DNA from: Desulfosporosinus acidiphilus SJ4
GTDB taxonomy: Bacteria; Bacillota; Desulfitobacteriia; Desulfitobacteriales; Desulfitobacteriaceae
Assembly (NCBI RefSeq): GCF_000255115.2
Contig: NC_018068.1
Location: 3,815,977 to 3,879,976 of the forward strand
DNA length: 64,000 nucleotides
Direction: 5' to 3'
The notes beneath the pieces are model-generated. The model ran no database searches. It was not told where the DNA came from and worked only from the letters and a program-made list of their open reading frames with translations. Of the stretch, positions 33,000 to 52,530 are shown piece by piece (positions within the stretch are counted from its first letter, which is position 1; each line of letters opens with the position of its first letter). The position numbers and the translations under genes are program-made.

Positions 33000-33345
33000 C
33001 GTTTTTAGAAATTACGAGCTGCTCGATTGCTAAGTATGAGGGTATTCACCAAGGTTGGGCAGGTAAGCTATTTATTTGGATTACCTAATTTAATTGGAGC
33101 AATAATATATTCAGTTCTAAAATAAAACTTATCACTTCTGACATTTCTTATGAGAACCAAGAAAACTCCTTCAGCTAAAGCCGAACCTCAGAACTTCGGA
33201 AAAGAGCTCTACAGACACCGAAGAAAACTTCTTGCAGTATTTAACCGAAGGTTATACTTTCTGATCGTATAAAATAGCTTAGCATTCCCCTTCACCAGAG
33301 AAATGCTAAGCTTTAATATTTCCAGATCTGTTTTCATCTTAAGTG
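33000..33345. other. 346-base intergenic region with a degenerate copy of repeat A
   Basis: The gap has no convincing reading frame. Its second half (33235-33271) matches the right-hand part of the two repeat A copies at 50.0-50.2 kb, differing from the second copy at only about seven of 37 positions. It includes CCGAAGGTTATAC and an ending GTATA. A hairpin follows at 33276-33312. Confidence 0.6.
33276..33312 (-). terminator. terminator of the ACT/ligase operon
   Basis: Arms AGCTTAGCATT (33276-33286) and AATGCTAAGCT (33302-33312) form a perfect 11-bp stem, with an AT-rich tail on each side. It lies 33 bases after the ACT gene stop. Confidence 0.75.
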
Positions 33346-49210: not shown

Positions 49211-49894
49211 TTAATGAGAGTTACGGTTTTCTTCCACAGTGATCTGCCATTGAGTTCGAGCCATATTTAAGATCTTGGGCTCTTCGTCGCGCATCGGATG
49301 TTCCACTATCTTCGAAAAATAGCTAATAGCTTTGGTATATTGCCCAAGACGACGATATAACTCGCCAATAAGAAATAAAACTCTGAGTTCAGACATCGAA
49401 GTCCCGTTAAAATCAGAATAGGTATAAGAAGCTTCATATTCTTGAAGAGCTAGCTTCAGAAAACGACTTTCCTCTTCCAGTTTATCTTCCGTCCTGTAAA
49501 TCCATGCTAAACGCAGGCACAAGCCCGCCAAAACAGCATGTTTTTCCTTTTTCAAGGTAGCAGAATAGATTGCCAGCTTTAAGGACTCAATAGCTTTATG
49601 GGCATCCCGGAGCTGTCCAAAATCTTGTTTTTTCCACTCGTAGGATATCTTTGCGTTGATAATTTCTTTGGTACCTGAAGGGAAACTCTTGGAGAATTCA
49701 TCGGTAAAAGCGAAACCACATTCCGGACAGACTCTTACATAGTAAAAATGTGGATTAGGAGTTCCATCTTTGAAATGGGGGCAGAAGTCACTATCGATTT
49801 TATAGGGTGCGGCAAACCTTGAACGAACTCTAAGGGTATGAAACTTATGCCCACAGCATGGACAGTCAACTTCCTTTTCGTAAAAAGCTTCCAT
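49211..49894 (-). CDS. DUF2225 protein with zinc ribbon and TPR-like repeats
   Basis: This 227-residue protein starts with a zinc-ribbon-like segment (CPCCGHKFHTLRVRSRF, then FCPHF and CPECGFAFTDEFS to about residue 65). A helical part follows with TPR-like units (for example LCLRLAWIYRTEDKLEEESRFLKLAL and LFLIGELYRRLGQYTKAISYFSKI). DUF2225 has no known activity; these proteins are frequent in spore-formers. I chose the ATG at 49894 with AAAGGAG eight bases before it. It ends about 50 bases before the MFS gene. Confidence 0.88.
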   Translation of the reverse strand: MEAFYEKEVDCPCCGHKFHTLRVRSRFAAPYKIDSDFCPHFKDGTPNPHFYYVRVCPECGFAFTDEFSKSFPSGTKEIINAKISYEWKKQDFGQLRDAHKAIESLKLAIYSATLKKEKHAVLAGLCLRLAWIYRTEDKLEEESRFLKLALQEYEASYTYSDFNGTSMSELRVLFLIGELYRRLGQYTKAISYFSKIVEHPMRDEEPKILNMARTQWQITVEENRNSH

Positions 49895-50000
49895 CTCTCG
49901 CACTCCTTTCCATAATTTGCGTCTCTAATTAAAATCAAGTCAACAAGGCGCAGTTTGTTTAAGTGATTTAGTTCCCGGCTAAAGAAAACTTGGCGGGCGC

Positions 50001-50072
50001 CGAAGACACTGTCTTCGCACGAAATAGCCCTTCTTTCAGTACACAACCGAAGGTTATACTTTTCATAGTATA
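50001..50072 (+). repeat. repeat A, copy 1
   Basis: This copy has three stem-loops in a row. The first is CGAAGAC/GTCTTCG (50001-50017). The second is CCTTC with GAAGG around CAGTACACAACC. The third is TATAC (50055-50059) with GTATA (50068-50072). The next copy differs at only a few bases. Confidence 0.8.
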
Positions 50073-50138
50073 AAGAAAACTTAACTGTCGCTGAGCCTCT
50101 GGCGAAAGCGACGGCTAAGTTGCACTGATGCTAGAGGA

Positions 50139-50211
50139 CGAAGACACTGTCTTCGTACATATTAGCCCTTCTTTCAGTACACAACCGAAGGCTATACGTT
50201 CCGATAGTATA
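50139..50211 (+). repeat. repeat A, copy 2
   Basis: The copy is nearly identical to 50001-50072, including the CGAAGAC/GTCTTCG hairpin and the CAGTACACAACCGAAGG segment, with a 66-base insert between copies. A degenerate third copy is at 33235-33271. Confidence 0.8.
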
Positions 50212-50420
50212 AAAAAATTAAAACGTATCTCGACTATTGATTCGACTCTCTTCACTAAATTCCTTCATAATTTCCAAATTGAATCGTGTATATGATTAAG
50301 AATTAGATAAATCCCATTATAAGGTTTAACAATTTTTTAATAGAACATGTATGTCTGATCACAAAATCTACGCTATAATAATGGAGAAGACAATCTTCAA
50401 CTTTCTAAATAGATTCCGCT

Positions 50421-50505: not shown

Positions 50506-52530
50506 TTGAAACTAAGAAAAAAACAAGTAGCCTATTTTTCTCGCGATCGTTGGGTCCAAATATTCTTGGCTGCTTTAGTACTCGTGGTATTCGGCAGACT
50601 GATCGATCTTCAAGTTGTTCAAGCATCAGACCTTAAGCAAAAGGGTATTGAACGGCGAACAAATGATGAAAAGGTTCGGCCGCCAAGAGGCACCATTTAT
50701 GATGCCCAAGGGAATGTTTTGGCCCAAAGCATTCCTGTTAAAGAGGTCTATGCGGATCCTAAAACATTAAATGATCTGATTTCTAAAAAACAATTCAAAA
50801 GCAGCAAAGAAGATGTCGCCAAGGAACTGGGAAATATTCTCGGAATTGATCCCCAGAATATACTGTCTAGTCTTAACAAAATAAACTTATCGTGGATTAG
50901 CTTAGCACATCAAGTTGACATTCAAAAGGCCGATCAAATAATGGCCCTGAAAATTCCTGGAGTCGGCTTAAATGATGAAGAAAAACGCGTCAACCCCATG
51001 GGAAGTCTGGCTGCCTCCGCACTTGGCATTGTAAATCAAGCCGGTCATGGAGTTGAAGGGATCGAATCTTATTACGACAAAGATTTATTCGGTAGACAAG
51101 GCTTTATTTCCCAGGAGCAAGATACGCGCGCCCGCTCCATCTTAGGCGCTCCTTCTCAAGATGAACCTCCGGTTCCAGGGGATAACCTCACCTTAACCCT
51201 AGATTCAACCATTCAGTATTTAATTGAACAGCAATTAGATAGTTTGGCACAATCGACCCAAGCAAAAAGCGTCACTATTTTAGCGATGGATCCAAAAACA
51301 GGACGAGTTTTGGGAATGGGCTCTCGGCCAACCTTTGATCCTTCTAATTACCAGAACTCAAATCCTGAAGTCCGCCGCAACCTGGCCATCAGCATGACCT
51401 ATGAACCAGGATCTACGTTTAAGACAGTTACCGGCTCCGCCGCAATAGAAGAAGGAGTAATAACCCCGGATTCTGTATTTTACGACCCCGGCTACCTTCA
51501 AGTCGGTCCGAAAGTGATTACCAACTGGGATTCTAACGTGCAAGCTCGTGGAAACACCACCTTTACCCAGGGAATGCAGTCATCCTCCAACGTTGTCCTT
51601 GCCCAAGTCGGCATGAAACTGGGAATGGATAAATTTTACACATACTTAAGAGCCTTTGGATTTGGTTCTAAAACCGGTATTGATATCTCCGGCGAGGAAA
51701 GCGGCATAATTGTTCCTCAGAACAAAGCCAGAGAACTAGACCTTGCCACAATGTCCTTTGGTCAAGCAAATTCAGTGACACCTATTCAATTATTAACGGC
51801 TATCTCTGCCATTGCTAACGGAGGAACTTTGTATAAACCCTATATTGTTGATAAAATCACAACTCCTGATGGGCAGCTAGTCCAACAAAATAAGCCGACT
51901 CCAGTTCGGCAAGTTATCTCAAAAGAAACAGCAGCTCAAATGACAGGAGTATTGGAACAAGTTGTTAACAATGGGACGGGGTATCTGGCAAAAATCCCGG
52001 GAATTAACGTAGCCGGCAAAACAGGAACCGCTCAGAAGATTGATCCTAAAACCGGTGATTATTCGGCCACCGATTATATAGCATCCTTTGCGGCTTATGC
52101 ACCTGCCGAAAATCCCAAAATTGCTCTTTTAGTCATTGTCGACACACCAAAAATGGCCGATGGTGAACATGACGGTGGTCCTATTTGCGCTACCCCGGCA
52201 AAAGCAATCCTTGAAGGGACTCTGCAATATTATGGTATTCCTGTAGCCGGCGATACTCAAAGCAACGTTTCGATTTCTCCAAATGAAACCTCAGTTCGTC
52301 CCACTCCGAAACCTGTAACACCTGAGCGCGCACCAAGCGCCGAAGAAGTTGTAGTACCTGATTTAACGGGACTTACCATGCGCCAAGCCGGAGTCATATT
52401 AGAAAAGTCTGAACTGCACTTTAGTTTTACAGGAAGCGGTCTGGCCAATCAACAATCTCTGCCGGCAGGAAAAGTGGTTACTAAAGGTACAACCATTAAT
52501 GTGACGTTCTCCTCTTTGTCCTCCCCATAA
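50506..52530 (+). CDS. SpoVD-like class B penicillin-binding protein with PASTA domain
   Basis: This 674-residue transpeptidase has one N-terminal membrane helix (about 17-36) and a dimerisation domain beginning RPPRGTIYDAQGNVLAQS. Its active-site motifs are STFK (in YEPGSTFKTVT), SSN and KTGT (in AGKTGTAQK). A C-terminal PASTA domain (VVVPDLTGLTMRQAG onward, about 615-674) follows. The SpoVD/FtsI type makes the spore cortex or septal wall. It starts at a TTG at 50506, with a weak AGGT eleven bases upstream. It is outside any division cluster and convergent with an amidase gene; it is a second class B enzyme in this window. Confidence 0.9.
   Translation: MKLRKKQVAYFSRDRWVQIFLAALVLVVFGRLIDLQVVQASDLKQKGIERRTNDEKVRPPRGTIYDAQGNVLAQSIPVKEVYADPKTLNDLISKKQFKSSKEDVAKELGNILGIDPQNILSSLNKINLSWISLAHQVDIQKADQIMALKIPGVGLNDEEKRVNPMGSLAASALGIVNQAGHGVEGIESYYDKDLFGRQGFISQEQDTRARSILGAPSQDEPPVPGDNLTLTLDSTIQYLIEQQLDSLAQSTQAKSVTILAMDPKTGRVLGMGSRPTFDPSNYQNSNPEVRRNLAISMTYEPGSTFKTVTGSAAIEEGVITPDSVFYDPGYLQVGPKVITNWDSNVQARGNTTFTQGMQSSSNVVLAQVGMKLGMDKFYTYLRAFGFGSKTGIDISGEESGIIVPQNKARELDLATMSFGQANSVTPIQLLTAISAIANGGTLYKPYIVDKITTPDGQLVQQNKPTPVRQVISKETAAQMTGVLEQVVNNGTGYLAKIPGINVAGKTGTAQKIDPKTGDYSATDYIASFAAYAPAENPKIALLVIVDTPKMADGEHDGGPICATPAKAILEGTLQYYGIPVAGDTQSNVSISPNETSVRPTPKPVTPERAPSAEEVVVPDLTGLTMRQAGVILEKSELHFSFTGSGLANQQSLPAGKVVTKGTTINVTFSSLSSP

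Follow-up and report, generated by a model that had tools for sequence, protein, structure and literature searches.

A divergent intergenic region of Desulfosporosinus acidiphilus SJ4, between a gene encoding a DUF2225/TPR protein (49211..49903, minus strand) and a gene encoding a penicillin-binding protein with transpeptidase and PASTA domains (50506..52530, plus strand), contains two related, hairpin-rich sequences. The original prediction for this locus offered two possibilities for them, noncoding RNAs that form a family or a mobile unit with palindromic structure. The window, which is the whole stretch of DNA analyzed here, comprises 64,000 nucleotides of the genome, and the positions given below refer to it unless genome coordinates are indicated. 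The evidence supports the mobile half of that alternative and does not support a dedicated RNA role.

Structure of the repeat in the window

The original prediction was partly confirmed in that the repeat is real, while its unit and limits had to be redrawn. The two copies lie where they had been reported, share 62 nt at 90% identity with a start-to-start distance of 138 nt, and each contain hairpins. The actual unit, as given by an alignment of 28 copies with a mean column identity of 93%, is 139 nt and not 72 to 73 nt; the shorter length is the portion common to a full copy and a derivative from which most of the large third hairpin has been deleted. The 66 bases and the imperfect hairpin that had been placed between the copies correspond to hairpin H3, the end of the full copy. 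The element reads consistently on the minus strand, with the full copy at 50209-50071 followed, with no gap, by a short copy at 50070-49980. The full-length copy (50071..50209, minus strand; G000:C3:3866047-3866185:-) matches model positions 1-139 of the repeat profile with an E value of 7.6e-35. The second copy (49980..50070, minus strand), directly behind the first, is internally deleted and ~91 nt long, as supported by its profile match (3865971-3866043:-, model 4-77, E=2.7e-13) and by repeats D1 and D2, and it keeps the left end, H1, H2, and the right end and lacks most of H3. Further short-form copies occur in the same genome at 3604575, 151545, 4500595, 15790, and 1098994. A third copy had been proposed at 33235-33271; a related, diverged stretch is indeed present, with other limits, its left part (model 2-55) matching the profile at 33215..33268 on the minus strand (E=1.2e-6). 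By eye, the similarity extends to about 33163, and inspection of the sequence places a hairpin just upstream, at about 33276-33311.

The full copy contains, all on the minus strand, the left subterminal hairpin H1 (model 12-34; 50176..50198), the core hairpin H2 (model 54-72; 50138..50156), which is the most conserved piece, and the right subterminal hairpin H3 (model 89-132; 50078..50121). The consensus of the 28 copies reads, in order, TACTATC AGAAA, H1, TGC AAGAAGA, H2, a linker, H3, and TTTTCTTTA, and that of H2 is CGAAGAC AGT GTCTTCG; in this alignment (A1), the row of the full window copy is placed two bases off. The two ends of the element are unlike each other (TACTATCAGAAA versus TTTTCTTTA). 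The right end TTTTCTTTA (50071..50079, minus strand) is target-like, and the tandem copy adjoins behind it. In front of the left end lies a host T-run, TTTTAATTTTTTT (50210..50222, minus strand), with no clear hairpin. A possible guide at model 37-43 (50167..50173, minus strand), found in the RNAalifold consensus of the 28 copies, is complementary to TTTTCTT; its consensus is AAGAAGA, and the window copy reads AAGAAGG.

Copy number and distribution

A BLASTN search of the D. acidiphilus genome with a 233-nt query gave 42 matches, the second best with an E value of 2.3e-50, and the repetition within this genome is far above chance. A profile built from 28 copies (R1, a sequence-only model with rough E values) gave 124 matches in the same genome at E<=0.001 and detected matches in all 29 Desulfosporosinus genomes, this one included, at 1 to 112 each. 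The search of the genome and its relatives that had been suggested for the unit thus recovered many copies. At E<=1e-5, an order-wide profile search matched 41 of 73 genomes, namely, 28 of the 29 from the genus and 13 of the 44 others, which are spread across seven further genera. Genomes from other genera of the order (G030-G042, G051, G053, and G054) had 1 to 14 matches each. The exact core pattern was found in 46 stretches of named genomes, all of them Desulfosporosinus, a count that perhaps excludes the D. acidiphilus genome itself. Gene-less and rich in hairpins, the element occurs in many copies per genome in Desulfosporosinus. The earlier remark that no named family matches holds as far as tested: no Rfam family reached the gathering threshold in the window, the three matches below it at 49900-50300 had E values of 0.38-2.9 with nothing credible among them, and a literature search, mostly of papers available without a subscription, found no description of this repeat. 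It is a real, genus-wide, terminator-homing repeat that is apparently new to the literature.

Conservation of the fold

The 281-nt fold containing the copies has a z score of -3.78 on the plus strand and -3.01 on the minus strand (200 dinucleotide shuffles). The original prediction had also claimed that the fold is kept where the sequence varies, and the check for compensatory changes that it called for agrees: 12 of the 30 pairs of H1, H2, and H3 are changed on both sides, versus 4.0 +- 1.2 in shuffled alignments and 3 to 8 pairs in slid controls. In a structure-free alignment of 81 matches from 96 sources, these 30 pairs are paired at 89.6%. Most stem positions are conserved simply in sequence. 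The RNAalifold consensus also pairs AAGAAGA (37-43) with TTTTCTT (131-137), an interaction kept in at least 26 of the 28 copies for each pair. Just 5' of H1, AGAAA is complementary to TTTCT and is kept in 25 of 27 left ends from relatives, with its first base, A8, being A in 24 of 33 full copies of the D. acidiphilus genome. These short A/G-rich guides (AGAAA and AAGAAGA) may perhaps choose the site by pairing. Complementarity of the guides to the target and right cleavage site is present and guide-target covariation is absent, and the degeneracy is not shared by relatives.

Intrinsic terminators as the target

The usual target of the element is an intrinsic terminator, consisting of a hairpin and a T-tract, directly 5' of its left end. 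The terminator rules and the ORF caller used here are crude. By a simple rule, a terminator lies directly upstream of 68 of the 95 copies with a left end; the same rule gives 407 of 5700 at random positions and 3 of 39 at right ends read on the opposite strand. The window copy is an exception among the 27 of 95 that have no terminator by this rule, having a T-run but no clear hairpin. By an energy rule, a hairpin with a T-rich tail precedes 62 of 74 copies, and the distance from hairpin to junction is most often 6 to 8 nt. With the T pattern held constant, a strong hairpin lies in front of 37 of 49 copies versus 480 of 5810 control sites (400 kb). In 74 copies of the D. acidiphilus genome, T occurs at -7 (64 copies), -6 (71), -5 (67), -4 (51), -3 (71), and -2 (54) and is rare at -1 (6). 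The T-tract before 27 copies of relatives is the same except for the dip at -4, and the difference between -4 and -3 in the D. acidiphilus copies is absent from them. One copy in another locus (L080:966-1201) lies directly behind a T-box leader (RF00230), between the regulatory terminator and the gene. At its right end, the element has a hairpin and then TTTTCTTTA, which resembles the hairpin and T-tract of the target. With such a terminator mimic, a copy could offer a landing site to the next one. In the window and at locus L014, the next or previous copy is found at the right end of the element.

Orientation relative to replication

In the D. acidiphilus genome, 90 of 101 nonoverlapping copies are codirectional with the leading strand. 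Long ORFs show a similar bias (219 of 270 on the leading strand in a systematic 400-kb sample), and tested against this gene strand bias of 0.81, the excess is modest (p=0.022). The classes between convergent and divergent genes are decisive, because genes there do not set the orientation: 23 of 25 copies between convergent genes (p=1.9e-5 versus 0.5) and 13 of 15 between divergent genes (p=0.0074 versus 0.5) follow replication. Among copies at tandem genes, 47 of 49 follow it, and in the against-gene class, 4 of 9 do. By a strict terminator rule, copies are split 38 leading to 2 lagging, versus 143 to 101 for background sites, which surely include false terminators. Replication orientation is also found in 16 of 19 copies of relative G028 and, weakly, in 20 of 30 copies of relative G010. 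The orientation means that the strand on which hairpin, T-tract, and element read 5' to 3' is the lagging-strand template, and in the D. acidiphilus genome the top strand of the element is on this template in about nine of ten copies. Replichores were assigned from GC skew with the terminus set at 2.60 Mb; the sign of the skew changes between 2.29 and 2.65 Mb, so a few copies near the terminus could switch sides. The counts for D. acidiphilus use 107 of the 124 profile matches, the 17 dropped ones all having E values of 3e-8 or weaker; these were reduced to 106 by one match with no fetched locus, to 101 by merging neighbors, and to 98 with classifiable flanks. The counts for G010 and G028 rest on the 49 of 145 matches with E<=1e-7, those for G010 omit two rows adjoining a counted row, and the eight rows of G006 were left unused.

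Mobility and precision of insertion

The dispersed copies, the absence of copies from orthologous sites, a nested copy, and the defined target together support the mobile-unit half of the original alternative. The site in the window, between the DUF2225 and penicillin-binding protein genes, is conserved in relatives G017 and G001, and the element is absent there; divergence of the intergenic sequence makes the exact empty-site junction unreadable in these genomes, and loss of the element instead is formally possible. Strain BG likewise lacks, at the corresponding loci (L184, L196, and L204), three other copies of the D. acidiphilus genome (L130, L082, and L093). A comparison of 200 kb of G003 with 200 kb of its close relative G006 (about 95% identical) showed no differing copy of the element and is uninformative. 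At locus L017, one copy lies inside another, inserted between two bases, with nothing lost or duplicated except an ambiguous T. For target duplications of at least 3 nt, no clear excess was found among 33 full copies with 24 boundary choices at k=3, 4, 5, 6, and 8; the largest excess of flank identity was at k=3, with 4 observed versus 1.64 expected, and a match of 5 or 6 bases occurred in single copies. The left and right ends are constant in the 33 full copies across unrelated sites, and copies carry variable internal deletions and extra modules.

Candidate mobilizing enzymes

The only REP-type Y1 protein of the D. acidiphilus genome, with 188 aa, exceeds the PF01797 cutoff and scores 77 bits with NF047646, below its cutoff of 80. 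Around its RAYT-like gene (L032), no profile matches to the element were found. A partial duplicate of the first part of this REP-type Y1 gene, 94% identical, lies ~4.6 kb away (L032 and L033; G000:C3:4406656 and 4411319). The sole RT match of the genome is an open frame in which the first 12 positions of RVT_1 are missing; it carries an HNH domain and so is not of the endonuclease-less kind. Across the genus, RT domains are present in all 29 genomes, and a Y1 match is absent from 5 of the 29; G010 has 81 profile matches to the element and no Y1 match. The number of element matches is not correlated with that of Y1 (rho 0.20, p 0.31) or RT (rho 0.12, p 0.55). Element ends were found in none of 62 loci with Y1 (PF01797) or RT (PF00078) genes, covering 32 of 100 Y1 matches and 30 of 122 RT matches; the only profile matches in them were core pieces in RT locus L264, and locus L230 had one loose left-end-like match. 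IS200-type elements (two groups and further copies) were considered as partners and rejected, having other ends and no evident terminator target. RAYT-type loci were also rejected after they were compared with each other and shared no flanking copies of the element. With a Y1 gene that has no adjoining element, a genome with many copies and no Y1 match, no correlation in number, and no loci with the ends, the enzymatic step of the mechanism below is one that we infer.

Mechanism and alternative explanations

What this analysis shows is the target, the ends, and the strand bias, and these are best brought together by the reading that the repeat, which carries no gene, behaves as a nonautonomous mobile DNA element that probably inserts as a single strand in the manner of the IS200/IS605 and REP elements, mobilized in trans. 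We give this joint reading a probability of about 0.55. Single-strand insertion is proposed because there is no clear duplication of 3 nt or more, the hairpins are subterminal, the target is in the left flank, the right end is target-like, there is guide-like complementarity, and the strand concerned is the lagging-strand template. While this template is single stranded, the terminator hairpin would fold and expose its T-tract, and an enzyme would then join the element, as a single strand, 3' of the T-tract. The A/G-rich guides, AGAAA 5' of H1 and AAGAAGA after H1, would perhaps select the site, and they also fit the element's own right end. The likeliest enzyme would be a Y1 (HUH) transposase acting in trans. 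Insertion behind a terminator would rarely harm a gene, which would be the benefit of this choice of target. A variant is that the repeat belongs to a new class of single-stranded DNA elements that homes to terminators folded as hairpin plus T-tract on the lagging-strand template, has a right end mimicking a terminator, so that every copy would create a further landing site, and is moved by some enzyme other than a recognized Y1 transposase or a group II RT; this is a tentative proposal, which we consider clearly less probable.

Somewhat less likely again is a minimal RNA-based retroelement resembling group IIC introns, whose guided RNA would enter the single-stranded DNA of a terminator at the replication fork, by reverse splicing or copying, with an RT supplied in trans. 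Group IIC introns do target terminators, all 29 genomes have RT domains, insertion is precise, without duplication and on the strand of the terminator, the fold is RNA-like and covaries, and AAGAAGA resembles an EBS1 that could serve as a guide. Against this, no Rfam group II intron model matches, 139 nt is too short to accommodate the domains that known group II introns possess, a target-like right end is not known as a feature of introns, and neither the 30 RT loci (0 with element ends) nor the copy numbers connect the element with an RT. Still more doubtful is a cassette behind genes, either a functional RNA or a regulatory hairpin, that spreads by its usefulness, as a 3' UTR element, a second terminator, or an mRNA-protecting hairpin. 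It would fit the covarying stems, the terminator-like right-end hairpin with its T-run, and the 74 of 98 classified copies that are codirectional with the gene in front (49 tandem and 25 convergent), but it does not account for the copies between divergent genes, 13 of 15 of which have the same replication orientation, nor for absence at orthologous places, nesting, variable internal deletions, and extra modules. In addition, the element begins after the T-tract, so transcription is expected only by read-through, and the one minus-strand promoter-like site near the window copy, in the flank and left end, comes from a scan with 3 sites in total versus 1.8 expected from shuffles. A dedicated RNA role of the element is not supported, since most copies lie directly behind a terminator, at which transcription is expected to stop, and the only minus-strand promoter-like site near the window copy is in the flank and left end.

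Template switching between hairpins on the lagging-strand template, as a replication error with no dedicated enzyme, would explain the strand bias, the dependence on hairpin and T-tract, the tandem and nested mosaic forms, and the failure to find an enzyme; the ends, however, are constant in 33 full copies at unrelated sites, which points to a defined cutting step, and we regard this explanation as improbable. The least probable of all is a MITE of a DDE transposon with a chance preference for T-rich sites. Such an element would be short, gene-less, repeated, and intergenic, as the repeat is, but its ends would be terminal inverted repeats, whereas TACTATCAGAAA and TTTTCTTTA differ; no duplication of 3-8 nt was found in the 33 copies, and strict orientation to the hairpin and to replication is unexpected for double-strand cut-and-paste transposition.

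Insertions into the repeat and mosaic forms

An IS110-family element with a 368-aa transposase (NF033542) is inserted at an internal site of the repeat, AAGT/GTGCAACT, in L086 (3035110-3036986) and L090 (G000:C3:4514815-4516682); its transposase frame, split in L086, is open in L090. The right end of an IS110-family element lies at the same AAGT/GTGCAACT site in a third copy, L120 (near 42015). Downstream of the transposase gene, the noncoding region contains CATAAGT and also AGTTGCACTT, which matches the joined target in reverse complement over 10 nt across the junction. According to passages of one report, IS110/IS1111 elements pick their targets via an RNA from that noncoding region, and ISPa11 targets REPs (PMC11187229). 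Judged from these insertions, an IS110-family element homes into this repeat.

Long-form copies run on into a second structured repeat (GGCCATGACGATAAGC...). Since this second part also occurs alone, in the D. acidiphilus genome and in the genus, the long form represents a mosaic, and the idea that it is the parent of the 139-nt form was rejected. The GGCCATGACGATAAGC repeat and other modules are found both alone and inside copies of the element, and hairpin modules seem to be nested in one another as a mosaic in the genus. The second repeat (GGCCATGACGATAAGCGGACGAGCTTATCGCCACACTGCAACTC...GGCC) occurs alone, fused to the first, or inside it at L417 (G000:C3:758074), L394-L400, L402-L405, and others. 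L095, L085, L101, L110, and other long copies have extra left or right modules, e.g., TACTATCAGACCCCCATGCCGC...CAGGCAG before AAAGTATAACC. In the relatives' loci L076, L193, L205, and L174, the core module (GTGCGAAGACAGTG CTGCAAGAAGG...) is tandemly repeated and lacks the usual left end.

For a selfish element, terminators are safe places to land, and group IIC introns use them; a gene-less 139-nt element appears to use them by another route. If the proposed mechanism is true, the repeat would represent structure-guided target choice by a DNA element, would naturally record where the lagging-strand template is single stranded at gene ends, and would explain a large share of the repeats in the genus. 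The repeat also gives a concrete search for the trans-acting enzyme and is a case of an IS110-family element carrying a match to a repeat in its noncoding region.

Comparison with known systems

The element shares with REPs and REPINs mobilized by RAYT its short palindromic structure, its many intergenic copies, the lack of a gene, and the expectation of a transposase in trans, and IS110-family elements home into REPs as well (excerpts of PMC1525189). It differs from a REP in that it is not a single palindrome of 20-40 bp and occurs mostly in one orientation and not in inverted pairs, and from both REPs and REPINs in that no RAYT gene was seen beside its copies and its target is a terminator. 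In a paper on GTAG/CGTC-tagged REPs, the terms "Desulf," "Clostridi," and "terminator" do not occur (PMC3733652). The element resembles the IS200/IS605 family in its subterminal hairpins (here, H1 and H3), its target directly 5' of the left end, the lack of a clear duplication of 3 nt or more, its use of the lagging-strand template, and perhaps the guide-like complementarity to the left target and right end. A conserved tetranucleotide tag is a hallmark of REPs and REPINs, and the known IS200/IS605 targets are short sequences of a few bases that do not need a hairpin. For the repeat, no tnpA-bearing partner with its ends was found (0 of 32 Y1 loci). For that family, insertion into the lagging-strand template is described in excerpts of PMC6006769.

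Group IIC introns insert at intrinsic terminators, and introns lacking the endonuclease use replication-fork primers, according to parts of another report (PMC4424553). The element is like group IIC introns in having a terminator as its target and unlike them in its 139 nt, theirs being much longer, in matching no intron model, and in its target-like right end. BOX, RUP, and SPRITE of Streptococcus pneumoniae are short intergenic repeats that insert into one another, and SPRITE is terminator-like (excerpts of PMC10969869 and PMC3049150). The element is like them a short intergenic repeat with copies inserted into one another; they have another sequence and host, and in those excerpts, neither a terminator target nor a replication-strand bias is mentioned for them.
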